64,000 nt of DNA from Hygrocybe punicea. Its lineage: Eukaryota > Basidiomycota > Agaricomycetes > Agaricales > Hygrophoraceae. Where the stretch lies: contig OY744461.1 of assembly GCA_963556145.1 (NCBI GenBank), positions 2,666,001-2,730,000 on the forward strand, read 5' to 3'. Position 1 is the stretch's first letter. Every line of letters begins with the position of its first letter. Positions 44,548 through 63,028 of this stretch are shown one piece after another. The position numbers and the translations under genes are program-made. The notes below the pieces were generated by a model. That model was not told the DNA's origin and ran no database searches. It was given only the letters and a program-made list of their open reading frames with translations.

Positions 44548-47500
44548 TCACGTACTCCATAATTTTTTGACTCCCGGCACAGTGGCCAGAAGGAATCGAA
44601 TTGACGTCGCGTCTCATCCTAGTGTCGCCCTGAGTCTCCTACATTCTTCATCGTGTGCCCTACATTCAAAGATAAAATGGTGTATAGACTTGATGCCTTC
44701 GCCGCACTCCATGCACACGTTGGTCTCTGCCTTGTGGATTCTGTGCAGGTAGCGGTTGAGCAGGACATGCCCTGTGCGGAATTGCATTAGTAGACAGAAC
44801 TGTGACCTGCTAATCTTAGCTTGTAATTTTCGGTAATCCTTCATGCCCAGACTCGGATCTATTTTGCTTAGCTTGGGGTATCTCGGGGATTTCTTCCAGG
44901 TTTCTTCCCATTTGTTGGATAGTAGCTTGAGGTAATGACCTTTGATTGCGGATGCATTGGCTGGAAGCGAGTGTGTCTGCAAGTATTTGGGTAGGCTCGA
45001 ATTCCTGCTACTATTTCCCCTCGCGGCCTTCTTCGCCTCCCTGTCAGCTTTTTCGTTACCTTGTACTTCGCTGTGTGCCGAGATCCAATTGATCACGAGT
45101 TGTAAACGCCATCCCCCTGGCCTTTTCTTGAGTGACCGTATAAGCTTGCATAGTTCCAGTATAAGGTGTTGATTAGGTTTCTGCCTGGGGGTAGCCGTCG
45201 TCAGTAGCGTGGCTTGGCTGTCTACATGGATGGAGATGGAGGTGGGGGACTTCTCTCTTTTAATCAGCCTTAGAGCCAACATTGTCCCAACTATCTCAGC
45301 CTCCGGCGTCGTATGCTTCTGGTTTGAGCCTAGATAGTATCGCAGAATTTTGGGCACTGCGTGTCCTGACCTATAGAGTACCGCCGTGGCTCCTACTCCT
45401 CCATCTATGTTTGACCCGTCCGTGTACACCTTAATGTTGGAGTGATCGTTGTCGCATCGTCTGATAGAGTCCTCTCTAGTAGTGTCGACATTGACCTCGA
45501 AAGGTGTGAGTTCGTCATCACATGCTGCTTTCGCGGCAATTGGTTCTATGTCGTCGGGCTTGATCCTGTATATGTGGGTAAGGACATGAAGAGGGGATCT
45601 GTGCTGCAACACATGATGCCTTGCACATGTTCTAAGTGGCCTGTAAAGGGGGTGTGTGATCAGAAGCATTGCCATTCTCACGGCCACGCGATGACAGATT
45701 TTGTGTAGGGTTAGTTCCATAGGTAATAATCCTGTGTGCAAAAGCACTAGGTCATCAGGCATGGTCCTCAAGGCTCCCAAGATGGGCACCGCTGCCATCC
45801 TCTGGATCCTTTCCAGCCTCCTAGTCAGCCCTGCTGACCCTCTCCTCTTGTTTGATCCTTCGACTGTGTGTAACGGGGTGTACCACACATCGGCTGTGTA
45901 GGACATCTTAGGGATTGCTACGGCAACATAGAGCCATTTCAGGAGCTTTGCTGAGAGTACGCCTCGGGTTCTAGAGATCCTATGGAGCATCAGTGTCCAT
46001 TTAGTAGCATTGGCGATCACCTTTTTGTGGTGTTCTTTCCATCTTAACTCTTGATCAAAGAGCACTCCTAGGAAACGGTGGAATGACGACAGCTTTATCA
46101 CAGTGCCTTGCAGTTCCATGCTAGGCTGAGTTATGTTCTTTTTCTGCGAGAAGTTAATTAGCGCGAATTTGCTGAGCTCGAACCTGGAGTTGTGATCCTT
46201 GGACCAGTCTTGCACCCCTCCTTCCCTCATCATCATGTCTTTGATTAGTTTGTGCGCATCTTCGAAATTACCCGCTTCCGCATAAAGAGCCGTGTTGTCC
46301 ACGTAGGCGAGTGCGAGTTCTGATTTGTACCTGGGCACCTCTAAAAGGTCAGCGTTGTAGAAGAGATAAATTATCATGGAAGCCAGGTCTCCCTGTCCGA
46401 TCCTGTTGGTCAGCTCTAGTGTTGCCACGACTATAGCCGATGTTTTTTGAAAAATTGCCTTTTTAGGCCAGTAAAATTAGCTAAAATTATGAAAATATTT
46501 GAGGAGATGGGCAAAGCCAAAAGCTGAGGGGTCACTTAAGGGTGCTAAGAATTTGGTGTACAATCTTCAGAGTTATTCAACCATAGCTGTTGAGTCTAGT
46601 CAGCTACAGTCCAACAGCTATCCTTGAATAACTCTGAAAATTGAGCCCCAAATTCTTAGCACCCTTAAGTGACCCCTCAGCTTTTGGCTTTGCCCATCTC
46701 CTCAAATATTTTCATAATTTTAGCTAATTTTATTAGCCTAAAAAGGCAATTTAAAAAAAAAACATCGGCTATAGTTGTGGCAACACTAGTCAACTCGAAA
46801 GGCTCTGATAAGTCATCAAATCTTAGCCGTGTCATTCTCCCTGTTATCGTCCTCTCTGTGAGCAGTACCAGGGCCTCCAGGATCCTTCTCATCCTCATGT
46901 TGTGCAGTAGCCTTGCCAAGACCGCATTCGGGAAGGCTCCCTCTATGTCTAGAAAAAGTACGGTTGCAACTCTCTTATTTTGCCATGCGTGTTTTATTCT
47001 GTTCACGAGGAGCTGCATGGAGTCTGTAGTCGTTCGTCCTGGTCTTCCTCCAAAATGGTGGGTGGGCAGGAGTTGGTATTTCTCTGTGAGCTGCGATATT
47101 TTTTCCGCTAGTAATGCAGTCAGTATCTTCAGTATTGTGTTTAAAAGTGTGACTGGTCTCCATGCCTTTGGAATGTCGTATCTTGGCCGGTCCGGCTTTG
47201 GGAGTACAACTGTGATAGATTCGCGCCATGGAGGGTGGTATGTTTCTAGTTTGAGCGTGGCATTGAATATCCTGTGGAGATGATTCAAGAGTAAATCAGT
47301 GCATTCTTTGAGGACCATGTTAGGAATGCCATCGGGCCCTGGGGCCTTGTACAGCTTGAGCTTTCCTATACACTGTCGGATCTGCTCTTTCGTGACTTCG
47401 TTGTCCGAGGGCACCGGCTCAGGATAGATAAAGTCATCCAGGATAGAGGTTTCTTGAGGCAGGGGTGGGAAGAACATTTCTGAGAGCATTTTGCTCTTAA

Positions 47501-48431
47501 GTTGGTTAGTGTCCACAACCCGGGCTTCTCTTCCGACTCCTTTAACGAGTGTTGGGATTCTCGCTCTACTGCCATCTCCCCCCGGGTTTGAGATGTATCT
47601 GTTAATGGTCCAGAGATCTCGTCCGCTCGCTTCCTCCGAAAAATCCCTCCAGTGATCCTCTTTGGCCTTGAGGATTTCCTGGCTTAAGCGGTTCCTGGCA
47701 TCTCGCATGGCAGCATGTGAGGGATGGTGGGGTAGCGCACGGTACTTATACGATTCAGCACTCAGCACTTTTTTGGTTCGGCGTAGTGCGTCCAGGTCAG
47801 GGTTCCACCATCTCTTGGAATGTGGACATGGTCTGGAGAGGGAGACTACCTCCTCTATTGTTTTCTGTAACACTTTTGTGAGGTTTGACGCAGCCTGCTG
47901 AAAAGATGCATCGTCAGTAATTAGCGGTGGAATGGGTAGAGTGAGCAGGTTAGCCGCGAGTCATTCTCTAAGGGCATCTTTGCTAGCTTCTTGAAAATTC
48001 CTTGAAGGCTCCGGCGTCTTCTTTACTGTTTCGATCCTGAAGATGGTTTTGATGGGTACATGGTCCATTCCTGTTGGTCGTTCATCCGGGGCCATGTCGC
48101 ATAGCATTAGATGATCCCGAAGAGTCGTCGAGCAGACGACATTGTCTGTGCGTGTCCAGTTCTTGTTGTTCATGGCTTCTAATGTCAGGATGTCCTTTGG
48201 CAGTACCATTACCATGTCGAGGTCGGCTATTGTTTCTAGGAGTCTTTCCGCTTCGTCCATAGCCCTGTTTGTAAAAAGATGCATATTGCGTTCTTCGTCC
48301 CACATGGGGTGATGCCTGTTGAAGTCCCCTCCCCATATCAGATGAGCCCTTTCAGCGTATCTTTCCCATGATACATGGGTCAGCCAAGATGGACAATTCC
48401 CACTCCAAGTGGGCTGGCTTATCTCGGCCAA
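44548..48431 (-). pseudogene. Non-LTR retrotransposon (Tad1-like LINE), 5'-truncated and interrupted
   Basis: Reading leftwards: the C-terminal half of an endonuclease (GGDFNRHHPMWDEE, TRTDNVV, TGMDHVPIK); a reverse transcriptase with APGPDGIPNMVLKE, KAWRPVTLLNTILKI, HHFGGRPGRTTTD and FLDIEGAFPNAV; the active-site box as YVDN instead of YVDD; then RNase H with VYTDGSN, TPEAEIVG, HVDSQAT and SAHSEVQGNEKAD; and a terminal zinc finger (CMECGEGIKSIHHFIFEC). The RNase H supports a Tad1-type assignment. In-frame TGA codons occur at about 47960 and 44614; translation remains open on both sides of each. A 372-bp MITE splits the gene at 46417. The 5' boundary, near 48365, abuts a minisatellite. Confidence 0.9.
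46417..46788. mobile_element. hAT MITE (372 bp) inside the LINE, 8-bp TSD with one mismatch
   Basis: The ends are TAGTGTTGCCAC and GTGGCAACACTA. The TSD is GTCAGCTC at 46409-46416 and GTCAACTC at 46789-46796, which differ at one base. The arms of about 180 bp are near-complements. Removing the MITE and one TSD joins the LINE coding sequence as PFELTNRIGQGD, in frame. Confidence 0.95.
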
Positions 48432-48960
48432 CCAATATCTTTCTCCAGGGCAGATGGCTTGGCCGAGGGTTCCATGTTCGGAGAAGCATGGGTGGGCCGA
48501 AGCAGAAGGATATATTGGCTGGCCATGGGAGATGGATTGGCCGACCGGTCTGGGTATCTTGGCTGGTCATGGAACATGGATTGGCCGACCAGGCTAGGTA
48601 TCTTGGCTGGCCATGGAACATGGATTGGCCGACTTGTCTGGGTGTTTCGGCTGGCCATGGAATGTGGATTGGCCGACCAGTCTGGGTATTTCGGTTGGCC
48701 ATGGAACATGGGTTGGCCAAAGCTTTGGTTATATGACATGGCCATAGCACCTGGATTGGCCAAAGCTCCAGCTCCATTGGGATGGCCACAGCTCTAATTA
48801 CATCAGCTGTCAACATGATATGCATTGGCCAACACTCAGAATACATTGGCTGGTCATGGCACATTGGTTGGCTGTTCCTAATGGGTCTTTGGCTAGTTGT
48901 GGGTCATGGATTGACCAGTGCCAGAGATATAATGGCCAGCCATGATACGGCTGACCTTGT
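48365..48960 (+). repeat. 44-bp minisatellite
   Basis: Units such as GGCTGGCCATGGAACATGGA followed by TTGGCCGACCAGTCTGGGTA and TTTC repeat about six times at 48500-48710, with degenerate copies on each side. All long frames here are repeat artefacts. It abuts the truncated 5' end of the LINE. Confidence 0.9.
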
Positions 48961-49034
48961 GACATAGGGTTAGGGTTTACACCGATAAAATGCAATAAAT
49001 TCCTTCTAAGACATTGTCAGCTTAACATTACAAC

Positions 49035-49955
49035 AAGTACTGCTACTGTGTCACAAATGCCTCTGAAAGGATAATAAGCAAGACACCAACGCCATTCAGT
49101 CTTGATCTCAAAGGAGGAGCTCTTCTCCTTCTTGATCAAGACTAACTGACAAAGAAAATACTAACAAATATTTTGCAAACAAATATCCAAAAATGGATAC
49201 TGAAATCAACTAAACTAACAATATTACCTGGTCTCAATGTCACTAAAGGGAGGCTTAAAAGTAATAATGAGACTTACCTGGTCAACTTTCAATGATGCCA
49301 CCAGGCCCACTACAAGTAGGTTGCCCAGCAAGGAAATCAGGGGGATTCACCCGCCCTTTCATTCCTGAAGACCTGTACAGTGACAAGCACTCATTTCTGA
49401 GGACCAGACACCAACAGTTGGCATGCAGAGATGCCACAATGTTCATTCAAGTTGAACAGATAACTTCAACAAAAGATACTGTCAGTAATGGGGTAATACA
49501 AATTAATCACTCATCTGGATGCAAACATACCAAAGAAGATACCTGACGGTGAAAAAGAAGAAAATACCACAATAATCAAGTAGTCCTGTGAAGTGAACAG
49601 ACGTGAGCAACAAAGCCTGAGGAAATCACCTACCAGTTAAGACTATGACACTCCAGAATCTCTGGTTGTTGCCTGGTACAATAACCAAGGATCCTGCAGT
49701 GTCATCAAAAGTGGTAGTGGTGGTTGTGAGGTAAGGAGAAAATCTCAACCGTGTTTGATGGGCTTGTACTTATTTGTTCATGTGACTTAACGTGTTTGTT
49801 GATCACATGTCACAAAGTGTGATGTCACATTGGGCCGTCCAAACGTTACGTCACATTTGTCACATGTCGCATCTCAATAATCATGTGACACGCGAGTCAT
49901 ATTCCTGACCTCATCTCACTATATATAGGATTAATCTATTTGGCTCCCCGGGGAG
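49035..49955 (+). repeat. MULE left terminal inverted repeat
   Basis: This arm of about 0.92 kb pairs with the right arm. Its inner end is TATATATAGG, then TATTTGGCTCCCCGGGGAGC (a perfect inner palindrome CTCCCCGGGGAG). The short open frame at 49292-49546 inside it is not supported as a gene. Confidence 0.8.
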
Positions 49956-50530
49956 CTGCTTACAAATCTCCTTTTTTGGGAGGGGAGCTAGGGTCCACGT
50001 AGCTCCCCCCATTATTGAATCAGGCATGTATGTTGCAATACTTACATCTCGATCCGACGATTGGACTAATGCCAAATATATAGGTGGCCACAAGCAAAGT
50101 TCAGGGACCCGCACATAACGCACCGCCCCCGATATACTACCAAGCTATTGGGAAGGGTGGTCCGAACACTCTAGGTGAGTCCCTACATACGCTCTCAGTA
50201 TCAATCTCATCAATATTATTCCTGTGGCTGAGTCCCACTCAACAACGTGGGGCCTAGCAAACGGCGACAACAACAATCACCAACACCAGGGATGAGGAGG
50301 CGCTGACATCAATATCACCTTTATCACCGCTACCACCACATTATCACCACTTCGCGCCACATCGTCGCCACCCCACGGCAATGACGACGACGAGGGAGAA
50401 CAAGGGTGGGAGGCGGCGCGCCCACATATGGCCCAGGTACGTTCTCAACACTCTTTCCAACTTGTACTAACTGCTTGTGACTGCGACCACGACCACAACC
50501 TGGACTGGGACAACGAAACCAATCCTGGGA
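49956..50530. other. MULE interior without a recognised gene
   Basis: The sequence between the left TIR and the WD40 fragment contains ACCACCAC/ATCACC-rich simple sequence near 50330-50400. No coding motif was recognised. Confidence 0.4.
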
Positions 50531-50534
50531 CGAT

Positions 50535-50715
50535 ATGCGCGTATGGGATATCGAGACTGGCCAGATTGCAGCTGGCCCCTTTGAAGACCATGAAGTTCTG
50601 TCTTGTCAGTTACATACTCGTCGGACGGTTCCTCGGTGCGCGATTGGGATGTCGAGACTGGCCAGATCATAGCCGGTCCCTTCGAAGGCCACACCAGTTC
50701 TGTATATTGCGGGGA
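50535..50715 (+). pseudogene. WD40-repeat gene fragment
   Basis: Two copies of a coding block lie about 102 bp apart: one encodes VWDIETGQIAAGPFEDH and the next DWDVETGQIIAGPFEGHTSS. The WDxETG...GPFxGH pattern is typical of WD40 blades in fungal NLR-type proteins. The spacing (34 codons rather than about 42) and frame changes between the blocks show the fragment is decayed. It lies inside the MULE, so it may be captured host sequence. Confidence 0.65.
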
Positions 50716-50828
50716 TGGGCGATGACAAGTGAGGACAGGTGGGCAGCAACAGCAAGGGGAACGAGGACGAGAAGTCCCCACCCTCTTCATGCTGCACAGC
50801 TCCCCTGGCCTCCCCAAGTCAAACCACT

Positions 50829-50883
50829 ACCTCGCGAACACATACGGCCACGTCAATTGACGTGTGCGCGGCGTTCACGAGGT
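50829..50883. repeat. 55-bp palindromic motif, locus B
   Basis: ACCTCGCGAA, centre ACGTCAATTGACGT and TTCACGAGGT, again exactly 55 bp. It aligns without gaps to the reverse complement of locus A at 11192-11246. Confidence 0.8.
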
Positions 50884-51202
50884 GTCCAGGATGCCCACCC
50901 GGAACCCAATACAAACAGGTCTGGAACCCGAACCTGCGCCCACGAACCTGACCCTACAGGTTCGCGGCAAATGGCTGCACTGAACCGAACCGTGGATAGC
51001 ATATGTACTTGTTTTTGCTAGAATTCAAGGGCAAGCTGGACCTGTTGCGGCCATCATTGCAAGGAAATCTCATGTACTTATATTTCGAGTCATATTCATG
51101 ATGCATGCACTTATTATTGACGTGAAGGGACTGATTCGAAGAGTTACATACACTACGTCAATACTGGCAGTTCAATTCATTGTACATAAGCAGGCTCATG
51201 GG

Positions 51203-54077
51203 TTACGCTTTCTTGCTACAAGTTGTTGCATAATGACCACGTTGCCCACACTTTGAGCACTTGCGGCGCCCAGGGCCATCACCTTCCGTGAACTTAACCT
51301 TCTTGCCACCCCTCTCTCCTTCAATGGCCGAGGCGAGTCGCTTCTTTCGGGGGCGACCTTTGGTTTGAATTGGACGAGGAGGTAAGATTGCTGGACCTGC
51401 CGCAGTATTCTGTTGCTCACTGCTCATCACAGCTTAGTCTCAAATAAGTAATTGTCAAGACAACATACATCATGGCTTCGAGATCAGCATTTAAACTCTG
51501 CAGATCAGCCTCCGTATTGACATGTTGCAAAACACCCTGGAATTTCGAGATGGCTTGATGGTGGATGACCTTCAGAGGTAAAGTTCGAGTGGTGGGTAGG
51601 GGCAAAGAATGTCTGTGAAATGGAGGTAAGTACTCGGGGATAAGAGGTACCATCGCCGAGTCGTCTTGACCACCATGACCAATTGTCACAGCCTTAGTCG
51701 TCGTGATATCAAAATTCTGGTTCGCGAGCCACCTGTGAATGCGGTTAGACATGGTCAGTGCTTCATGGAATCACTGACCTCCTGTTGAACAAGCCTAGGT
51801 GGAATTTGGCGGGTGACTTTGAGATTCGGAGTATGGCATAAAAGTGGCGACACGGAATGCCAAGGCCCGTTCCCATCATGCAGTCACACACGAAGTGGCC
51901 ATTTGCAAGTACAGCGAGATAATGAGAGGCCAACGTTGCATAGTGATCAACCCGGAACAGTGCCATGCAATCCCAGCCACGTTCCAGTATCAACTCCAGG
52001 AGATATTTCGCCGAGATATGAATAGCATCCTCAGTAAAATTGTTGAGGAGATCCTGATGCAACAATTGGATCTCAGCATCTCTGAAAGCATGTGCAATCA
52101 AAACATACCTCCGATGTAGTGATTACCCGTTCTGCCTCATCTGCCGGAACATTGATGGAAGGTGATTCTTGAGCATTGGTCACAGCACACTGCAAATCAA
52201 TTAGCTCTAACGAATGCAAAAAAAAGGTGTACAAACCCAATTTTCTTCGCCAGGAGGCCAAGTAATGGCATTTGCATTGTAGTACAAAGACTGTGACATT
52301 TGGTTGTACGATTTCTGAACGGCGTAAGGGACACAATGGTTTTGGAGAAGCTCCAAAGGTTGCGTGAAAAGGAGATCAGTCTGAGATGGATGACGAAGCC
52401 GGGCAGTCTGAGTGACAGCATTAGGTGACTTTTGACAACAATTCATAAAACGCTTACCTGACGAACACGCAACGCTTCAAGGTCACACTGAGTATCAGCT
52501 CGCTCCATCAAGTGCGTCGACAATTCATACACAGTCGTCTTGGAATCACCCAGTAACTTGTTGACCGCATTTTCACCCTCTACGCGACCAGATGTGCGAA
52601 CGCCACATGTGAAACGCATGGCGACATAGGTCCATGCCCAAGTTTCGTGAGTTGGCCAGAGCTCATTTTGAAGGTAGGGTTCCGCGGTTGGGAACTTCGC
52701 AATGAGGTCCTCCCATGCTCTTTCAAAAGCAGTCGGTGAAACCGAATAATACACACTCCAAAAGGCCTCACGGAATGATTGCAATAACGGTCCGAGAGTG
52801 GAAGCCAATGTCTTGACAACATTGCCATCGAGGTGGTTGAGACAACGTCCATGAAAGGATATTGCCGAGGCCGGACGCCTAGAAACGGCCAGCTCTAGTC
52901 CCGTGTCTGCATCCGAAAAGAAGACACGCTCCGGACAGGGTGGAAGCACCTCAAAAAGGCAATCAAGGGCCCATTGATGCTCGTCTGCGGTCTCGCCCGT
53001 GTGGAGCGAGTAAGCGATATTGCGAGTGACAAAAAATTGATAGATGACAACAAAGACATTGAGCAGTAAACCATACTTGTTTCGCAACATGGTGATGTCA
53101 TTAATGATGACATCACTGAATTGTTGAGCAAGGGACACCTGGCGAGGCGACATCCAAAAGATCCTCTGAAATTGGCGCGTCTCCTCGTTAACTTGAACAT
53201 GAAAGACCCAACGGTGGTTCGCATTTTTCAGCTGCGTGAGCTTCTCCACTATTGCTACCAAATCTCCACCAAGCAGTTCCACTGCATTTTGAGCACTTCT
53301 CCTTGCACCATCAAGAATGTTTGCCACTTGGCGCACAGTGAGGGGATGGTCAGGGAATGGACTTGACAACAGCAAGTGAATGTCGGACCTTGACAACGAT
53401 TTGACGGCTACAAGGTCACGAACGAAGTCCTTCTGTGCTTGGGATGGCGGGTTGTATATCGGGAGGTGATCATTGTGGGGGGCTGGGTGGTTATGAACAA
53501 GATTCACAGATGTGAGATGCTAAAGTCTTGCAGCCGAAAGCCGGATGTTGACACGAGCCATGCATGAGCGCCGCTTGGTTTTGCCGTGTCGATAGTCTGC
53601 AGGATTGAGAGTCTTGCCAGACTTAGGTTGACGCTGAGAGGCGGAAGAACACCTAAGGCGAAGTCATTTGACCTTCCCTGAAGAGTCGTAAGGTGAGAAA
53701 TGAATGCTTCGGAGCAAGAGAACGCTCATAAATAGCTTACCATCTCTGCTGCGTTCACTTTCACCCTTTTTCCACTCATATCCGCGATGACGCTCATAGA
53801 CGTACACAAAGTGTACAATGTCCCCCACCGCCTTGAAGAACATTCCAATTTGTGGTCGCTGTGGATCCAGAGGAGCGTCCGGGGACTTGTGCGGGGAACC
53901 GCTCAGAGATCGCGGTACTGTGGGACCAAACTTTGCTGATTGATGGTCAGGCGTATGGTAGCTGTCATCTGGATCAGACATGGATCCTGAATGCGTTTCT
54001 TGAGCATCCAAATCAACCGAAGGTGCTCGGAGGCGAGGAACACCTTGAGCTCGTTCCAGCAAGGGAGTGGACTGCAA
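51203..54077 (-). CDS. MULE transposase (FAR1-like DBD, DDE core, SWIM, CCHC knuckle)
   Basis: The first exon (54077-53735) carries VGDIVHFVYVYERHRGYEWK, and the next exons RHGKTKRRSCMARVNIRL and NLVHNHPAP, together resembling a FAR1/WRKY-GCM1-type zinc domain ending in His-x-His. The DDE core follows: VIINDITMLRNKYGLL (first Asp), VFFSDADTGLELAV (second Asp) and SGRVEGENAVNKLLG (Glu). A SWIM zinc finger reads FVCDCMMGTGLGIPCRHFYA. After further introns the C-terminus has GRPRKKR and a CCHC knuckle, CSKCGQRGHYATTC. Five or more introns are required. There is no clear disabling mutation. The protein would act on the ~1 kb TIRs at 49 and 62 kb. The exact start is uncertain; MSDPDDS at about 53979 is an alternative. 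Confidence 0.85.
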
Positions 54078-55464
54078 TCAGGTCAGAACTTTCCAGTGAC
54101 AGATCTCAATAAGAAACTGACTGACCGCGGTCTCTTCTTGTGAGCGAGCTGCTGCCAAGTTATGGCGCAAGAGCTGCTGCAGCCAATCTAGACGAAATTG
54201 CAACGCCGTCTCTTGGGACCAAATGACTACATCCGGGTCAAGGAATGAATGGATGGCGCTGATAGAAACAATCCCGCAAGACCCGCTACCCAGACCCTGG
54301 TTAGGTACAGGAAGAGCGCTCTTGGACCAGCTCCCTTGCACCTCTGTCACGTCACCTAGAAACCATTCCAACATCGCAAGAAGAGCCTCATTGGCAGCCC
54401 GGTCCATAGAATCACCTTGAAGGACGAGGCATTGTTCCAACGATACAATGCACGGTGCCCAATGATCGCCATCTTTGTTGAAATCGAAGGAAATGAATCG
54501 GGGAAGGTCGGTAAGAAGCGATTCGCGGAGGTCTGTTAAGGACTTTGAAAAACGTCTCGCTCGATAGGCGTTTGTGAGCATTGTGTGAAAGATGGCGGGA
54601 AGAAAGAGCACAAAGTGTGCGTTATATCGCAAATTGACATTGCACATAATCTGATAAGCCCGAGCGTCAAGAATGTGCTCACCGAGCCAGTTTTCGCCAA
54701 GAAGTTCGTGCAAGGTGCAAAGATCAGGAACACTTAAGTCCTTAGAAAATCCACACAGTTCTGTGTTAACCCGTGAACGAAGAAGGTAGCCTAAGTCAGC
54801 AGGACTCAGCAAGGTGTGAGAACGGACAACATCAACAATGGATAATAATCTGGTCACGCGCTGGCGGAACAACATCGCGTTTGACCAACGTCGCGCATCA
54901 CGAAAGTGCACAGAGAACACAATTCCTGCAATCTTTGCGGTAAGCAGGTGCAACATACTCCCAATGTGGTGATTCACCTTGAGTTTCAATAACCACGGAC
55001 CGTTTACCCCTTGCATATTGCTCAGATTGGTCGCCTAGAAAGACACGGATGTCTCTCAGAGACAGAATCAAACCATCACCAAGCAGAAATGTGGTGGTCA
55101 TGGGCATGGTTTCCGACCATCCAATAAATCGCACCGAATTGTCAGAAAGGGAGGCTGGAATCATCAAGGTGGTACATTGGTCGATTGTGAGCGCCGCAAG
55201 ATGGCCAAGTGAGAAAGGAACATTGGGAGGCGAAGCTTCGTAAGCTGAGTACCCTTCAAGATACTTAATTGGAATAACCATCTCTAACCCCAGGAGAGAC
55301 TCGGTGTCAGAGATGTCGCTGGAATTACCACCACCACAGACATAGCCTAATGGAGAGTAAGTTGGATGGATCCCCCCGCCGCTGAAATGAACTCTAAACT
55401 CACGTCGATGTCCATAGTCAGGTGGAATGTACGACTGAAGAGATAAATTCAAGGTATTGAACAT
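54078..55464 (-). CDS. Ulp1-like (C48) cysteine protease, MULE-borne
   Basis: The start at 55464 gives MFNTLNLSLQSYIPPDYG. The C-terminal half has a plausible C48 catalytic set in order: His in DGDHWAPCIVSLE, Asp in LVLQGDSMDRA, Gln in VPNQGLGS and Cys in GSGSCGIVSISA. Ulp1 proteases remove SUMO-like modifiers. Some plant and fungal MULEs are known to carry such a domain as a second gene, although its role in transposition is not settled. The two reading frames that make up the gene overlap at 54898-55016. The switch (near VLCALS and VHFRDARRW) needs either a short intron or a frameshift, so this copy may be damaged. The transposase gene follows in the same orientation. Confidence 0.7.
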
Positions 55465-55922
55465 GTTGAAGGAAGTGTCTTAGAGAAATCCGGGTAGAAA
55501 TACATGGTGCACTCGCGGTACATATACCGTTCGTGAATATGAGCCCTGGACAAAAAATGGCAGAGGTTGATCAAGAAAAAAATGACGGGGGTATCCTCCC
55601 GAGCACTAATCCGCATTCCTTGAAATTAGACCGACGGAAGGGTCGTGAAATTTTTTGACCGCGCAGTCAGGCCATTATCATGATGCAATTAGCCCCTACT
55701 CTGTCACGGTGCTAACAGAAGCTAGTACATATTGCTACGACGAATTTTGGTAATACATGTGCCTATTTTGACCAGTTCCGATGTTCATCCCGCTTCTCCT
55801 GAGATTCGATTCTCCACGGGCAGAACTAAGGGCACAGAAAGAGTACATCTGTACATAAATGTGATAAGAACGTCCACATTGACAATCCAATAGACTGACC
55901 TGAATCAGGCCATGTTCGGATG

Positions 55923-56350
55923 TCATTCCGAACCGCTAGAAGGCTCGCCATCCTTGTTCACATCATTGCCGGAAGAGCCTGAAATTTTCAAATGGTCATC
56001 TGGACCGGAAGGAACCCTGCTATGAGTGAGGGGTAAGGAAGTATATGGATATGAGTTCTCCGGTCTCAGGAACAGCGCTGACTCCAGATATTTTCCAGGG
56101 GTTGTTGCACAACCTGTCGGCACCCAAGCTTCTTTGCGATGCAATGCTGTGTCCCGCCACTATGTCAATGTATTTCAGTGAGCCAGAGCGTAAGAGAATC
56201 AAGTACATACCAATTCCCCATCAACTAGAGTTAGAACGTGAGCATTCTGTGCATCCCAGAGTTGATTGCCAGAGGCAAACTGGTGCCATCCAAAAGCCCT
56301 GTCGATTGTGCAATAACGGGGAACATTTGCCCTGCAGACAATTCGGAACC
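55923..56350 (-). pseudogene. Unidentified coding-like fragment
   Basis: Minus-strand frames give LKYIDIVAGHSIASQRSL and WKISGVSAVPETGELISIYF, which read like real protein but shift frame. I do not recognise the family. It lies between the protease gene and the HSP90 fragment and may be another captured host segment. Confidence 0.3.
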
Positions 56351-56399
56351 TAATTAGCAAGGCGTAGAACTGACAAGCTACTCATGAGAAATGTATACA

Positions 56400-56555
56400 A
56401 TACATGATGCAACACAAATCCGGAAACGTGCCCGGGCAGAGTCAACGCCCAAATAATGTGGACTTCTTGTGGTTGTTGTGCAGCAGTGCAAGCGTGAAAC
56501 GATATTCAGTTAGATCGAAAGTGATCATACGTGGACTGCAATGCTATTGCGAGGG
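56400..56555. other. No recognised feature
   Basis: A short spacer upstream of the HSP90 fragment. Nothing was identified. Confidence 0.3.
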
Positions 56556-56559
56556 CAAA

Positions 56560-56935
56560 CGATTTCACTCGTCGCCATGACTGTCACCAAAGTCTGGACT
56601 TGTCAAATCCGAGTCACACCCACTGGCAGCCCGCACATTCGCTATCTGTGCCCTACGATTGTCGGTAATCTTGACTTGTCTCTCTTACCAGTCCTATATT
56701 CGAGGAAGGAGCTCAAAATCCTCATCATTCCTGGGTTCCATTGCTGAGTTGGGCACCAAGGTAACGTCTTCTTTTATTATTCCTTACGTTTGGCCGTTCT
56801 AACATTTGTTTCTTGGAGGCACTGAGCGCTGAGCTCCAGTGTGGATATCTCCATGATTGGTCAATTTGTTGTCGGTTTCTACTCTGCCTACCTCGTCGTG
56901 GAACGTGGGCAAGTCATACTCGCGCACGACGTAAA
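56560..56935 (+). pseudogene. HSP90 gene fragment (N-terminal ATPase domain), frameshifted
   Basis: The clearest part is DISMIGQFVVGFYSAYLV at 56841-56895, the signature block of HSP90 N-terminal domains. Upstream, in another frame, GSIAELGTK followed by a possible intron (GTAACG at about 56760) and LEALSAE matches the preceding HSP90 segment, which normally reads through to the signature without a break. The Gly expected after IGQF is Val here. Frame changes and a damaged intron acceptor show it is a relic. HSP90 is an essential chaperone, so a fragment next to a transposase is best explained as captured or translocated sequence. Confidence 0.8.
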
Positions 56936-57054
56936 TCTGGCTCGTTCTAAGAGGGCTGTCATCACACAGCGCAGTTCTTTGGTGTTCATATCCTTTCAGG
57001 TGGGTGGGCACGTCATTGTGCTCTTGACATTGTTGCCGTTAAGATACGTTCATT

Positions 57055-58035
57055 CCACAGACTCTGACTCTCGAGTCCAATCACTTTATTTGCATACGAG
57101 AAAAAGCTGGCGAGCAGAATCAGGTGGTGATCATTGACCTTGCCGACACCAACAATGTGTTACGTAGGCCCATAACTGCGGACAGTGCAATTGTCAATCC
57201 CCGCTCAAAAATTCTCGCACTTAAAGGCATGTTTATCATCCTTTCGTGAGCGAATTTACTGAATAAACCAACAATGTCTTGTAGCTGGCTGGACGCTACA
57301 AATTTTCAATATCGACACGAAACAGAAAGTGAAGTCTCATGTTAATAGCGAGGACATAGTTTTTTGGAAGTGGGTATCGGATACGGTCATTGGAATGGTC
57401 ACCGAATCGTCTGTGTACCATTGGACAATCGCAGACCCGACATCACCTCCCCAAAAGATATTCAACAGACATCCAACACTCGCCGGTGCCCAGATTATCA
57501 ACTACCGTGTTACTGCGGACGAGAAATGGCTTGTCCTCATTGGTATTTCGGGAAATTCCACGAATCCTTCAGCTTTCAAGGGCAAGGGTGCGATGCAGCT
57601 TTACAGCAAAGAGCGAGGTGTCAGCCAACCTATCGAAGGACACGCTGCCGCATCCCCAGCATTGAAATTGGATGGCCATCAGAACCTCACCAAACTGTTC
57701 ACTTTTGCCGTACGCACAGCGACTGGCGCCAAGGTAAGCATGTTGCTGTGCTCCCGCAGTCACCGACTGATTGCTGCCTCAGTTACATGTTGTAGAGATT
57801 GATCATACAGCACGGGATCCACCATTCGTGAAGAAAGCGATCGACGTCTACTTTCCACTGGAGGCTACCAATGACTTTCCGGTAGCAATGCAAGTCTCCA
57901 AAAACACACGGCATTATCTACCTCGTCACGAAGTACGGCTTCATCCACCTTTATGATATTGAATCCGGTGCATGTGTATACATGAATCGCATCTCCGGTG
58001 AGACAATTGTGTGTATCACGACGTCCATTATATTC
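57055..58035 (+). pseudogene. Clathrin heavy-chain N-terminal domain fragment with introns
   Basis: Successive exons read [18 protein letters not shown] and [18 protein letters not shown]; then, after an intron at 57228-57282, AGWTLQIFNIDTKQK, SEDIVFWKWVS, VYHWTIAD and AGAQIINYRV. Next come GAMQLYSKERGVSQPIEGHA and, after an intron at about 57734-57781, [35 protein letters not shown], and in a shifted frame [17 protein letters not shown] and [11 protein letters not shown]. This order and these motifs are those of the clathrin heavy-chain beta-propeller. The fragment lacks the true N-terminus and the long leg, and has a 1-bp frameshift near 57905. The retained introns indicate DNA-level rather than mRNA-mediated capture. 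The first intron seems to use a GC donor. Confidence 0.9.
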
Positions 58036-58319
58036 TTCTGGTATAGGTTGTAGACTTTTGCTTTTGCATCTACATACACAATATTATTTGCGTTGTCCGG
58101 ATGATCGTGAAGATATGAAAATTTGAGGCACAAGACATCATCAGTTGCAAAAGTGAGATTGGTGATTGGTGAGATTGGAGATTTGAAATCGGGAGGGGCG
58201 CCATGACATAGAAAGCGCCTCCGATCTCCGATTGTACCTGGCTTAGTAAGCGGCGTCCCGGGGAGCCAAATAGATACTCCCCTATATATAATAGGTACAA
58301 AATAAAAAAAATAATGATA

Positions 58320-58430
58320 CGACAAGGGCAGGGAATCACCTTGCCCTCGTCTCACTATGTATAATACAAAAGAAAAATAATAATAACGATATGACGAGGG
58401 CAGGGTGATTCCCTGCCCTCGTCTCATCGC
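58320..58430. repeat. Tandem GAGGGCAGGG...CCCTGCCCTC hairpins (left)
   Basis: Two hairpins occur: near 58323-58355 and 58395-58427. The second has a 13-bp perfect stem, GACGAGGGCAGGG, with a 5-base loop. Each is followed by CTCACTATGTATAATA-like sequence or its equivalent. Confidence 0.85.
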
Positions 58431-59157
58431 TGATCCACCCCGACGGTTGGGTTCATGACCACCGTTGCCGTCGCTGCTGCTGCCATTCCCGCTGCTGCTG
58501 CTGCTGCCATTGCCATCACTGCTGCTGCTGCTGATGTTGCCGTTGCCGTTGCGGCTGCTGCTGCCGCTCCAGCTGTTCCCACTGCTGCTGCCGTTGCCAT
58601 CGCTGCCGCTGCTGCTGGTGCTGTTCGGGCTGCTGCTGCCGTTGCCGTTGCCGTTGCGGCTGCAGGCTTCGTCTTGGTGCAGTAACAACTGCAAGGTAGT
58701 AGTAGTACATAAAATAAGCAAAAAAACACTGATGACTTACCATACATGTCATCCTTTTCTTCGTCGCCGTCGTCCGCGTCTGCTGCTGCCCATTGCTGCT
58801 GCTGCTGCCGTTCCCGCTGCTGCTGCGGCTGCCGTGGCCAGTGCGGCTGCTGTTGCCGTTCCTGGTCCTGGTCCCACTGCTGCTGCCATTCCCGGACCTG
58901 GTTACGTTGCTGCTGCCGTTCACGGTCATGGTCCCGCTGCCGCTGCCATTCCTGGTCCTGGTCCTGGTCCTGCTGCTGCTGCCGTTCCCGGACCCGGTTA
59001 CACTGCTGCTCCTGTTCATGGTCCCGGTCCCGCTGCTGCTTCGGCTGCCGTTGCCGTTGCTGCCATTGCTGCTGCCACTGCTGTGGGTGCTGTTGCTGCT
59101 GTGCTGCCAGTCCTGTTGCTGCTGCTGGCGCAGTAACAACTGAAAAGCATAATTTGA

Positions 59158-59547
59158 CTAGTACATAAAATAAGAAAAAAATACAGACGACTTACTGTTG
59201 TCATCCATTTCTTCGTCGTCGTCGTCCGCGTCTGGGTCTTCGTCGTCGTCGACCACGTCCGCATCTGGGTCGTCCCCGTCTGTGTCTCCACCGACCCGGG
59301 CTCCATCGTCTGCACCGTCCCCATACCAATGTGGTTCCCGTCTCTCATCGTCGTCCTCGTTCTCGTCATTCCGGTCCCCGTGTCCATCATTGCCATCCCT
59401 GTTCTCGTTGTTCCGGTCTCCGCTGTCATCGCCATCCCCGTTGCCGTGTTTCCAGTCCCCATTGTCGACGTTCTGGACCCTGTTCTTGTCGCTCCGGTCT
59501 CCGTTCTCGTCATTCTGGTCCCCTGCATAGTTTGCCGCCCCCGTCAT
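59158..59547 (-). other. Outward-reading acidic frame in the left arm of palindromic element 2
   Basis: The frame is Gly/Asp/Asn-rich and ends in YGDGADDGARVGGDTDG, then an Asp run and MDDN at a GTAAGT donor. The mirror frame in the right arm (60955-61210) keeps the same block and the same splice position. Whether it is translated is unknown. Confidence 0.4.
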
Positions 59548-60954
59548 CGTTCTGGGCCTCGTTCAACCCCGCCACGTAGCCTTTCCCGGACCCATCGCGT
59601 TCACGGTCATCGTCCGTGTCCTTCTGTTATGGGCATCGCGTCGTTGGCTTCCGTCCTGGCGTTGCTGTTGGTGTGACAGTTGTCATGGTCGTCTGACGCG
59701 ACGTTGGTGGAAAAGACCTAAAAACTATGTGGAATGAGTTAGTAGAGTAAACAAAACAAACATAAAATGAAAACTTAAGCTACGTGCTCATCAAAGTCGA
59801 GATGAAGAGTGACGTGGCTTGAACTCGCACGAGAATTTCAACCGGCGTTTGCCGATTTCCTAAACGGGGCCGAATTGCCATATTGGTACAGGTTGCTGGA
59901 TTTTCTTATTGCTATTACATGCTGTATAACACCTCAATGGCCAGGGCAAGACCCTGAAGGGATGTAGGTATCCCATACCCACAAGTATGATAAATTTTGT
60001 ATTTTATTTGAGCCTACAGAGAGAGCTATTCACAATGTATTTGAGCCCTCTGCCAAAATTGGACCCTTAAACACCGAACTTTGCGAGTATACATCTAGAA
60101 AATCTAAAATTAATTCTAGCAGTACTAGGTGAAGTGTGCTTCATTGTTACAATAAGTGCCTGGCAGTTAGTAGTCCAGGAAATGTGTTGTAGGACAAATG
60201 TGTGTGGAACTTCACATTAATAAATTATTGGCTGTTCAATCAAAGTCCCGTTATTTGGATTCAAGTCATGCAACTCACAGCTTTACCATTTGTTGGCTAC
60301 AGCACATTTCCTGGACTACTAACTGCCAGGCACTTATTGTAACAATGAAGCACACTTCACCTAGTACTGCTAGAATTAATTTTAGATTTTCTAGATGTAT
60401 ACTCGCAAAGTTCGGTGTTTAAGGGTCCAATTTTGGCAGAGGGCTCAAATACATTGTGAATAGCTCTCTCTGTAGGCTCAAATAAAATACAAAATTTATC
60501 ATACTTGTGGGTATGGGATACCTACATCCCTTCAGGGTCTTGCCCTGGCCATTGAGGTGTTATACAGCATGTAATAGAAATAAGAAAATCCAGCAACCTG
60601 TACCAATATGGCAATTCGGCCCCGTTTAGGAAATCGGCAAACGCCGGTTGAAATTCTCGTGTGAGTTCAAGCCACGTCACTCTTCATCTTGACTTTGATG
60701 AGCACGTAGCTTAAGTTTTCATTTTATGTTTGTTTGATTTATTTTTATTAACTAATTCCACGTACTTTTTAGGTCTTTTCCGGCAACGTCACGTCAGATG
60801 ACCACCAACATTACCACATCAACATCGACAGCCAATGACACGAGGCCCATAAGAGGGCAACAACCATGGTTCCCGGAACGGCGACAACGAGGACCGGAAC
60901 GACGACAACAAGGACGGGAACGAAGGGAGGGGGGACGGCAACGATGAGAACGGA

Positions 60955-61587
60955 ATGGGGACCGGAATGACAGACCAGAGCGACAAGAACAGGGATGGCA
61001 ATGACGGACACGGGGACTGGAACGACGAGAACGAGGACGACAATGGGAGACGGGATCCACAACGGTATGGGGATGGCGCGGACGATGGAGAGCGGGTTGG
61101 CGGAGACAAAGACGGGGTTGACGCAGATGCGGACGCAGTCGACGATGACGAAGACCCAGACGACGAAGACCCAGACCCAGACGACGGTGAGGAAGAAAAG
61201 GATGACAACGGTAAGTCATCAGTGATTTTTTGCTTATTTTATGTACTACTAATGCCTTGCAGTCGTTACTGTGCCGAGGCGAAGCCTGCAACGGCAACGG
61301 CAATGGCAAGAGCAGCAGCAGCAGGGGACCGGAACGACAACCACGGGGACGGCAACAACGACAGCGGGGACCGGAACGACAACCACGGGGACAGCAACGA
61401 TGACAGCAAGCACAGGAACGACGACAGTGTGGACAGCAACGACAACAATGAGGACAGCAACAAAGACGGCAAGGCAGCGGCAGGACCAGGACCAGGACCA
61501 GGAGCGGGAACGGCAGCAGCAGCGGGACCGGGACCGGGAACGGCAACAGCAGCTGCACTGGCCACGGCAGCAGCACCAGCAGCGTGA
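60955..61587 (+). other. Outward-reading acidic frame in the right arm of palindromic element 2
   Basis: This frame carries GDGNDENGMGTGMTDQSD (from just upstream) and YGDGADDGERVGGDKDG, followed by an Asp/Glu run and KDDNG at the donor GTAAGTCATC (61211). The intron ends TTGCAG at 61262. Low complexity makes coding potential hard to judge. Conservation of the block and the intron between arms is the evidence in favour. Confidence 0.4.
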
Positions 61588-61671
61588 ACCGCAGCAGCAG
61601 CAGCAGACACGACAACGGCAATGGCAGCAGCAGCGGTGGTAATGAACCCGACCGTCGGGGTGGCTCAGCAA

Positions 61672-61778
61672 TGAGACGAGGACAGGGTGATTCCCTGCCC
61701 TCGTTATATCATTATTATTGTATTTTGTACCTATTATACATAGTGAGATGAGGGCAGGATTCCTGCCCTTGGAATATG
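61672..61778. repeat. Tandem GAGGGCAGGG...CCCTGCCCTC hairpins (right)
   Basis: Two hairpins near 61674-61705 and 61750-61775 mirror the pair at 58320-58430 at the outer edge of palindromic element 2. Confidence 0.8.
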
Positions 61779-63028
61779 ATGATTATTACCACTCACGTGT
61801 CACATGATTAATGCGACGCGACAGGTCACATGATTGATGAGACGTGACATGTCACAAGTGTGATGTAACGTTTGGACGGCCCAACGTGACATCACACTTT
61901 GTGACATGTGATCAACAAACACGTTAAGTCACATGAACAAATAAGTACAAGACCATCAAACATGGTTATTTTCTTCTTACCTCACAACTACTACTACCAC
62001 CTTTGGTGACACTACAGGATCCTTGGTTATTGTACCAGGCAATAACCAGAGATTCTGGAGTGTTATTGTCTTAACTGGTATGTGATTTCCTCCCTCATAT
62101 TCATCACTTCACCGACTACTTTATTATTGTGATATGTTCGTTGTTATGTTTCACAGGAGACAGATGAGGATTTTTGCCATCAAAGAATATTGCGATATCC
62201 ACTTAAATATTGAAATTATTTGTGTTGTTATCATAAGTCTGAAAAGGTTGTAAACAATAAGGTTATCTAAAAGTGGTATTCACACTGAAGACAGTGCAGG
62301 CAAAATTTTAAACTATTTGGTCTCCAGACATTCAAGCATGTGGCTTTGTGCCTGAACATCTGGAGAGTAAATAATCTAAAATTTTGCTGCACTATCTTTG
62401 GTGTGAATACTAACCTTACTTTTTACAATATTTTTCAGACTTATAATAACAACAAAAATAATTTCAATATTTGAGTGGAGATCGCAATATTCTTTGATGG
62501 CAAAAAATCCTCATCTGTCTCCTGTGTTTGCATGCAGATGAGAGATTAATGTGTATTATCCCATTACTGACAGTGTCTTTTTTTGAACTGAGCTATTCAA
62601 CTTGAATGAATATTGTGGCATCTTTGCGTGCCAACTGTTGGTGTCTGGCCCCCAGAAAGTACTGCTTGCCACTGTACAGGCCTCCAAGAATGAAAGAGCA
62701 GGTGAACCCCCCTGATTCCCTTGCCAGGCAAGCTACTGGTAGTGGGCCTGGTGGCATCATTGAAATTTGACCAGGTAAACCTCATCATTATTTGTAAGCC
62801 TCCCATTAGTGACATTGAGACCAGGTAATGTTCTTAGTGTGGTTGATATGAGTGTTTATGTCAACATATTTTTGGTTATGTGTTTGCAAAGATTTTGGTA
62901 GTGTTTTCTTTGTCAGTCAGTCTTGATCAAGAAGGAGAAGAGCCTTCTTTGAGATCAAGACTGAATGGCTTTGGGGTCTTGCTTTTGGTCCTTTCAGATG
63001 TGTTTGTGAATTCACAGTAGCAGTAGTC
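61741..63028 (-). repeat. MULE right terminal inverted repeat (with MITE insertion)
   Basis: This is the reverse complement of the left TIR at 49035-49955. The additional 375 bp at 62152-62526 are a MITE absent from the left arm. Identity is high but not perfect, with many transitions. Confidence 0.8.
62152..62526. mobile_element. Palindromic MITE (375 bp) with CACAGG termini and 3-bp TSD
   Basis: The ends are CACAGGAGACAGATGAGG and its complement CCTCATCTGTCTCCTGTG. Flanking TTT (62149-62151 and 62527-62529) is a 3-bp TSD. The left MULE TIR has the uninterrupted site ATGTTTGCAT in the corresponding place. CACAG-type ends with a 3-bp TSD are consistent with the CMC/EnSpm (CACTA) superfamily. 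The arms are about 170 bp. Confidence 0.9.

Follow-up and report, generated by a model that had tools for sequence, protein, structure and literature searches.

The question raised by this locus is whether the pieces of several host genes that lie together in it were gathered by one mobile element and, if so, by which element and by what route. The locus lies in a 64,000-nt stretch of the Hygrocybe punicea genome (hereafter the window; C1:2666001-2730000 in a genome of 92.2 Mb in 42 contigs, C1 and the like denoting contigs). An earlier note on this DNA had proposed a Mutator-like element (MULE) of about 14 kb, bounded by inverted repeats of about 1 kb and holding a transposase, a Ulp1-like protease and fragments of WD40, HSP90 and clathrin heavy-chain genes. 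We consider it highly probable that the window holds a fungal, transposase-bearing MULE that has a Ulp1-like gene and carries intron-bearing pieces of host genes, which were captured and then spread by transposition. This element, which we call family A, is an 8354-bp unit (49928..58281, no strand assigned), its limits being drawn from its ends and 9-bp duplications in five of five copies and from uninterrupted outer sites.

The terminal inverted repeats (TIRs) of family A are short and imperfect, at about 36 bp, with the left (49928..49963, plus strand) and right (58246..58281, minus strand) ends equal by eye at 29 of 36 positions; related right ends were found in other elements. Searches with the inner left and right parts found the interior again at C1:2584k, C1:4132k, C33:449-466k and C39:3537k, and the alignments of the copies begin at 49922-49928 and end at 58281-58293. 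Flank comparison gave perfect 9-bp duplications in all five copies, within the 9-11 bp that the earlier note had looked for and that is expected of a MULE, and they sit at the inner ends, 49928 and 58281: CTATATATA in the window (49919..49927 and 58282..58290, both plus strand), ttctacaaa at C1:2584k, ttttatata on C33, atgtatata at C1:4132k and ttaatactt on C39. The copy at C1:2584481-2592834 has the same length as that of the window and differs from it by 86 substitutions, 74 of them transitions, with no gaps, while the C39 (about 9.6 kb) and C33 (17.6 kb) copies are longer because of insertions. The outer 22 bases of the MULE end, with up to three mismatches, have 121 matches in the genome (63 + 58) versus none for the reversed control, and a 453-bp miniature inverted-repeat transposable element (C1:6235560-6236012; L067) bears family A ends with a 9-bp duplication of its own, tatttacaa.

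The inverted repeats of about 1 kb do exist (49051-49889 against 61825-63009 in a self-comparison of the window, with arms 85-93% complementary), but they belong to something else. Once the MULE is set aside, the nested, collinear inverted pairs of the window, including those at 58.3-61.8 kb, centre on 60193-60296 (25 of 61 pairs were considered), and the 49.0/63.0-kb repeats are the arms of one long foldback-like hairpin, separate from the MULE. This outer repeat (48342..63025, no strand assigned), delimited from its inverted pairs, its genome copies and its left boundary in other loci, comprises a left arm (approximately 48342-49927 and 58282-60192), a centre (60193-60296) and a right arm (60297-63025), and its inner arms are 99% complementary over 445 bases around the 104-base centre. 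Like foldback elements, it consists almost wholly of long inverted arms round a short centre, the class being assigned from arm structure. Its left boundary lies at 48335-48344 in five of seven left-arm loci; the distal right arm beyond 63025, missing in the window, is homologous in other copies to 48342-49035. The arms also contain minisatellite-like stretches.

These repeats do flank the genes in the window, and they could accordingly be read, as in the earlier note, as the TIRs of one gene-capturing MULE of 14 kb. We now regard that reading as extremely improbable. Searches with the left and right outer repeats found at least 21 long-type left arms and at least 24 right arms that are almost complete (the window's own arms are counted in both), and besides the window's pair at least 16 others whose arms are correctly oriented to each other and span 4.5-13.4 kb; all three counts are lower bounds because 40 candidates were scored in each search. 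The proposed search for elements with the same ends and other cargo thus returned pairs without MULE genes, and the outer repeat is therefore a multi-copy element of its own. Ends and 9-bp duplications of its own mark the inner unit, whose four other copies sit outside foldback-like repeats. Finally, the MULE is inserted in the left arm of the outer repeat, and its insertion site is uninterrupted in seven of the seven outer-repeat left-arm loci read (L002-L008), one of them with a 1-base variant; the MULE copy of the window landed in one arm of the foldback-like repeat. The earlier note had named two results as fatal to its view, namely that the repeats elsewhere bound only the genes at 51-55 kb or that the HSP90 and clathrin fragments extend as intact syntenic genes outside any element. 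Neither was found, although the first came true in spirit, as the outer repeats never bound the 51-55 kb genes elsewhere.

Nested repeats are abundant around the element, and unrelated fragments might have come together by nested insertion and decay, the chance juxtaposition that had been raised as the alternative. The HSP90-clathrin segment (56.0-58.2 kb) is, however, present in all five family A copies having both ends. An identical ordered block at five places, each with matching ends and its own perfect duplication, together with 121 versus 0 terminus matches, is more than chance, and we give chance assembly almost no credence. Capture in the style of plant Pack-MULEs, by an element with its own transposase, was thus rightly proposed, the segment travelling in one mobile unit.

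The transposase gene (51200..54077, minus strand, lower limit approximate) has FAR1-like, RNaseH-like/MULE, weak SWIM and zinc-knuckle parts. In the window it is interrupted by stops between the frames at 53664-54077 and 52443-53519; the copy at C1:2584481-2592834 has a 544-residue open transposase frame in the same region, which matches the Pfam ZSWIM1-3 RNaseH-like domain with 36.6 bits (cut-off 27.2). The SWIM zinc finger is a weak match (E 0.013; 15.4 bits, below the cut-off of 19.6). A protein search with the transposase, in which 7994 candidates were scored, returned 27 relatives, with precomputed PF10551 or PF21056 domains in 24 and FAR1 in four. Judged by these Pfam domains, the transposase is MULE-type, as the earlier note had it and as a MULE requires.

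The Ulp1-like (C48) protease gene (54078..55479, minus strand) is identified from Pfam, genome matches and conservation across the family. The genome contains 59 stretches that match it, four of the five family A copies have an uninterrupted frame for it, and by eye it shows what we take to be the His-Trp, Asp-Ser and Gln...Cys-Gly motifs of such proteases. Pairing of MULE termini, which drew on part of the 121 genome matches, gave six plus/minus pairs within 20 kb among the termini considered, of which five are true elements of 8-18 kb (C1:6983k, C2:6568k, C34:77k, C34:5110k and C35:4266k), and all five of these bounded elements contain a stop-free Ulp1-like frame. On its recurrence in the elements bounded among those termini, we reject the gene as captured cargo; the protease seen by the earlier note is present, but as a core gene of the MULE family.

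The clearest cargo is a piece of a clathrin heavy-chain gene (57059..58007, plus strand; terminal domain), which shares 96.5% identity over 949 bp, introns included, with C35:3165677-3166624. By eye, this C35 locus continues into exon 1 upstream and into further clathrin exons downstream, and the donor gene is apparently intact. At 57263-57802 the window contains a frame that aligns with PDB chains of the clathrin heavy chain (E 1e-44), and the piece shares the introns of the donor, which are as similar as the exons. A clathrin fragment with two introns had been noted from 57055; fragment and introns stand, with the strong match spanning 57059-58007. Because introns are retained, with the same ones in the C35 donor, the host gene pieces were copied as DNA and not from spliced RNA, in agreement with the earlier note. 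With CpG-type transitions left out (here and, as non-CpG identity, for HSP90 below), the donor and the five copies are 98.0-98.6% identical and the copies among themselves 98.8-99.9%; we count for capture that the copies are roughly as similar to the donor as they are to each other. At C1:4926k, an older and interrupted copy shares 98.2% identity with the donor over 57066-57640. The excess of transitions and the higher identity of copies without CpG-type transitions suggest methylation-linked decay.

In clathrin exon 3, 7-15 non-synonymous and 4-7 synonymous substitutions separate the copies from the donor, and these counts show no coding constraint on the piece, so that most probably the cargo is no more than passenger DNA. 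It could instead serve the element or the host, through antisense or small RNA directed against clathrin or HSP90 or as a chimeric protein, and both its retention in all five copies and the transcription of many plant Pack-MULEs, as described in the relevant passages of PMC8277862, would agree with this. The exon 3 counts argue against such a role, as does the decay of the HSP90 piece to a relic, and we consider it improbable.

That relic, which has an intron remnant (56668..56932, plus strand), is about 70% identical to the host gene, taken here as C2:5302.6-5304.8k, with other HSP90-family stretches at C6:4773k and elsewhere. An HSP90 fragment from 56560 had been claimed; it is present, but its similarity is confined to 56668-56932. 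The donor search urged by the earlier note has thus recovered the clathrin gene on C35 and the host HSP90 gene on C2. At the other end of the element, a reading frame at 50372..50891 (plus strand) resembles WD40 repeats, and its DNA has matches at many places (72-83%), some of them closely spaced. It is probably a WD40 fragment, which makes the WD40 piece proposed at 50535 plausible, and it recurs in relatives at C39:4999k and C33:4970k at 77-80%; being common to such distant relatives, it would be older. The relative on C39 (from 4999.5 kb) can be aligned with family A as far as 54131 and then, past nested insertions, as far as 55724. Neither an HSP90 or clathrin match nor a right end was found in it and, since the right end is missing, an original absence of this cargo is unproven. 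An insertion in this relative (L041; C39:4999500-5009400) is presumably, from its reading frames, a long terminal repeat retrotransposon.

A sister family, B, with right ends related to those of family A, carries a longer HSP90 5′ piece of about 1.5 kb (L045 544-2027), with upstream sequence, exons and introns. Copies lie at C34:3209k, C2:4809k, C33:5946k, C36:5875k and C1:40k; their left ends were looked for and not found. Non-CpG identity to the HSP90 gene is 97.5% for the C2 copy, 97.3% for C33, 96.5% for C36 and 95.7% for C1, values that fit one capture followed by divergence, and the piece is, on this evidence, younger than the family A relic. In the C34 copy (C34:3200800-3213800; L043, L057, L058) the HSP90 piece is doubled. 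In unit 1 all diagnostic columns considered are of element type as far as gene position 1853, and eight of eight columns at positions 1886-1983 are of gene type; the unit continues to gene position 2189, which is 162 bp past the common end of the four other family B copies. There it meets unit 2, which begins near 1414, and the two overlap by 2 bases (GG, by eye). We count the family B capture and the C34 hybrid, as we read them, for capture.

A second boundary of this kind may lie in the clathrin piece. To the left of 57059, identity with exon 1 and intron 1 of the donor drops to 59-65% (about 60-65% over a possible older piece at 56985..57058, plus strand, left limit approximate, from alignment), against 98-99% to the right. 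A 19-base core on the left matches the donor at 18 of 19 positions, and its score of 33, against a shuffle maximum of 29, was reached by none of 2000 shuffles of the stretch in the C39 copy, a control that used two-base chunks and is less stringent than a strict dinucleotide shuffle. We take this as moderate evidence for the prior presence of an older clathrin piece there. In another multi-copy repeat (L025-L028), older clathrin pieces occur scrambled, as a 5′ part, a 3′ part, a short inverted piece and a middle part, with 72-84% identity for pieces of at least 59 bases and 93-100% for the inverted piece of 42-44 bases; this repeat perhaps records a separate capture of the clathrin gene.

Capture could proceed as follows. 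Damage to the element, whether a break or a gap, would be repaired by copying from a host gene (template switching), by which a piece of that gene would enter, and the enlarged MULE would then transpose. In the C34 hybrid, one copy, a resident HSP90 piece has been lengthened with host sequence, which suggests homology-guided re-copying from the host gene. We therefore raise, as an idea to which we give not quite an even chance, that pieces once captured serve as seeds, offering homology for later repair that returns to the same host gene and so refreshes and lengthens the cargo; the C34 switch (host-type 1886-2189) and the boundary at 57059 would then be two snapshots of a ratchet-like process.

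The main rival to the re-copying step is that finished copies underwent gene conversion with the host gene: there would have been a single ordinary capture, the hybrid HSP90 and the clathrin boundary arising from later conversion with the host gene or from inherited older states. Conversion also produces sharp switch points, the second C34 unit is patchy and, because C2 and C33 are close relatives, some of the gene-type sites of that unit may be ancestral. The hybrid, however, overruns the end common to the other copies by 162 bp, so that new sequence was added, and at those switch sites that could be read the distant C36 and C1 copies are mostly of element type. We hold this rival to be a serious possibility, though one that falls somewhat short of even likelihood.

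Several points weigh against the account given here. In the 544-residue frame, FAR1 (24.2 bits; cut-off 28.1) and MULE (20.6; 27.6) fall below the Pfam cut-offs, and the Ulp1-like frame matches Peptidase_C48 at E 0.005-0.006, likewise below the curated cut-off. No WD40 model from Pfam was found for the two WD40-like peptides tried. The intactness of the clathrin and HSP90 donor genes is judged from reading frames by eye, support for the copying mechanism comes from a single hybrid HSP90 copy and a single clathrin boundary, and C34 unit 2 is a patchy mixture of element and gene states without a simple explanation. The balance nonetheless remains, in our judgement, strongly with capture and spread by the MULE.

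Two further sequences are recorded for completeness. The sixth plus/minus pair of termini, at C35:3189450-3192366 (2.9 kb), was tried as a small non-autonomous carrier and rejected, as its flanks show no duplication that matches and it resembles several short elements side by side. Minus-strand reading frames at 46677-48566, left of the outer repeat, resemble, by motif, what we take to be a LINE-type endonuclease and reverse transcriptase.

How DNA transposons acquire host genes is still debated. Here donors, captured copies of different ages and a hybrid with a narrow switch interval occur in one long-contig genome, and models can therefore be compared base by base; the locus also adds fungal MULEs that bear a transposase and a Ulp1-like core gene and whose cargo contains introns. 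A search of the open-licence literature, with subscription journals outside its scope, showed no MULE gene capture in a basidiomycete by title or start of abstract among the papers listed (the top 12-15 where there were more), and nothing relevant by title on Ulp1-bearing MULEs in fungi. The passages concerned of PMC10799480 mention rice Pack-MULEs and, for fungi, Starships, with no fungal MULE capture among them.

Gene capture by DNA transposons is already known in plants and ascomycetes, and family A is a further variant. Like plant Pack-MULEs and Pack-TYPE elements, it has DNA-copied gene pieces between MULE ends, several donors elsewhere and spread by transposition, with the clathrin donor on C35 and five copies of the cargo. 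Pack-MULEs, as PMC8903248 describes them in the part concerned, are non-autonomous, whereas family A keeps its transposase and Ulp1-like genes and has a fungal host; because it carries these genes, it is not a strict Pack-MULE, though it works like one. The hAT elements with histone H3 in the ascomycetes Pyrenophora tritici-repentis (PMC3538342) and Pseudocercospora fijiensis (PMC6710886) are likewise fungal DNA transposons with a housekeeping gene, and the relevant text on the former includes a transposase-bearing form of about 5.6 kb. These are hATs, while family A is a MULE with several donors, and for P. fijiensis the authors, in the passages at hand, infer an intron-free transcript or retrocopy, whereas family A cargo keeps its introns. 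The plant Kaonashi and KIU MULEs, to go by the pertinent portion of PMC13317346, carry a C48-type protease gene, as family A does in the form of a weakly matching Ulp1-like gene conserved across the family; they are described there as non-TIR elements, whereas family A has TIRs, and the likeness is one of gene content. The gap-filling and FoSTeST models for animal Pack-TIR elements, as presented in the sections concerned of PMC8277862, share with the route proposed for family A template switching in repair or replication followed by transposition; unlike in those models as given there, a resident captured piece here seems to guide the return to the same host gene.

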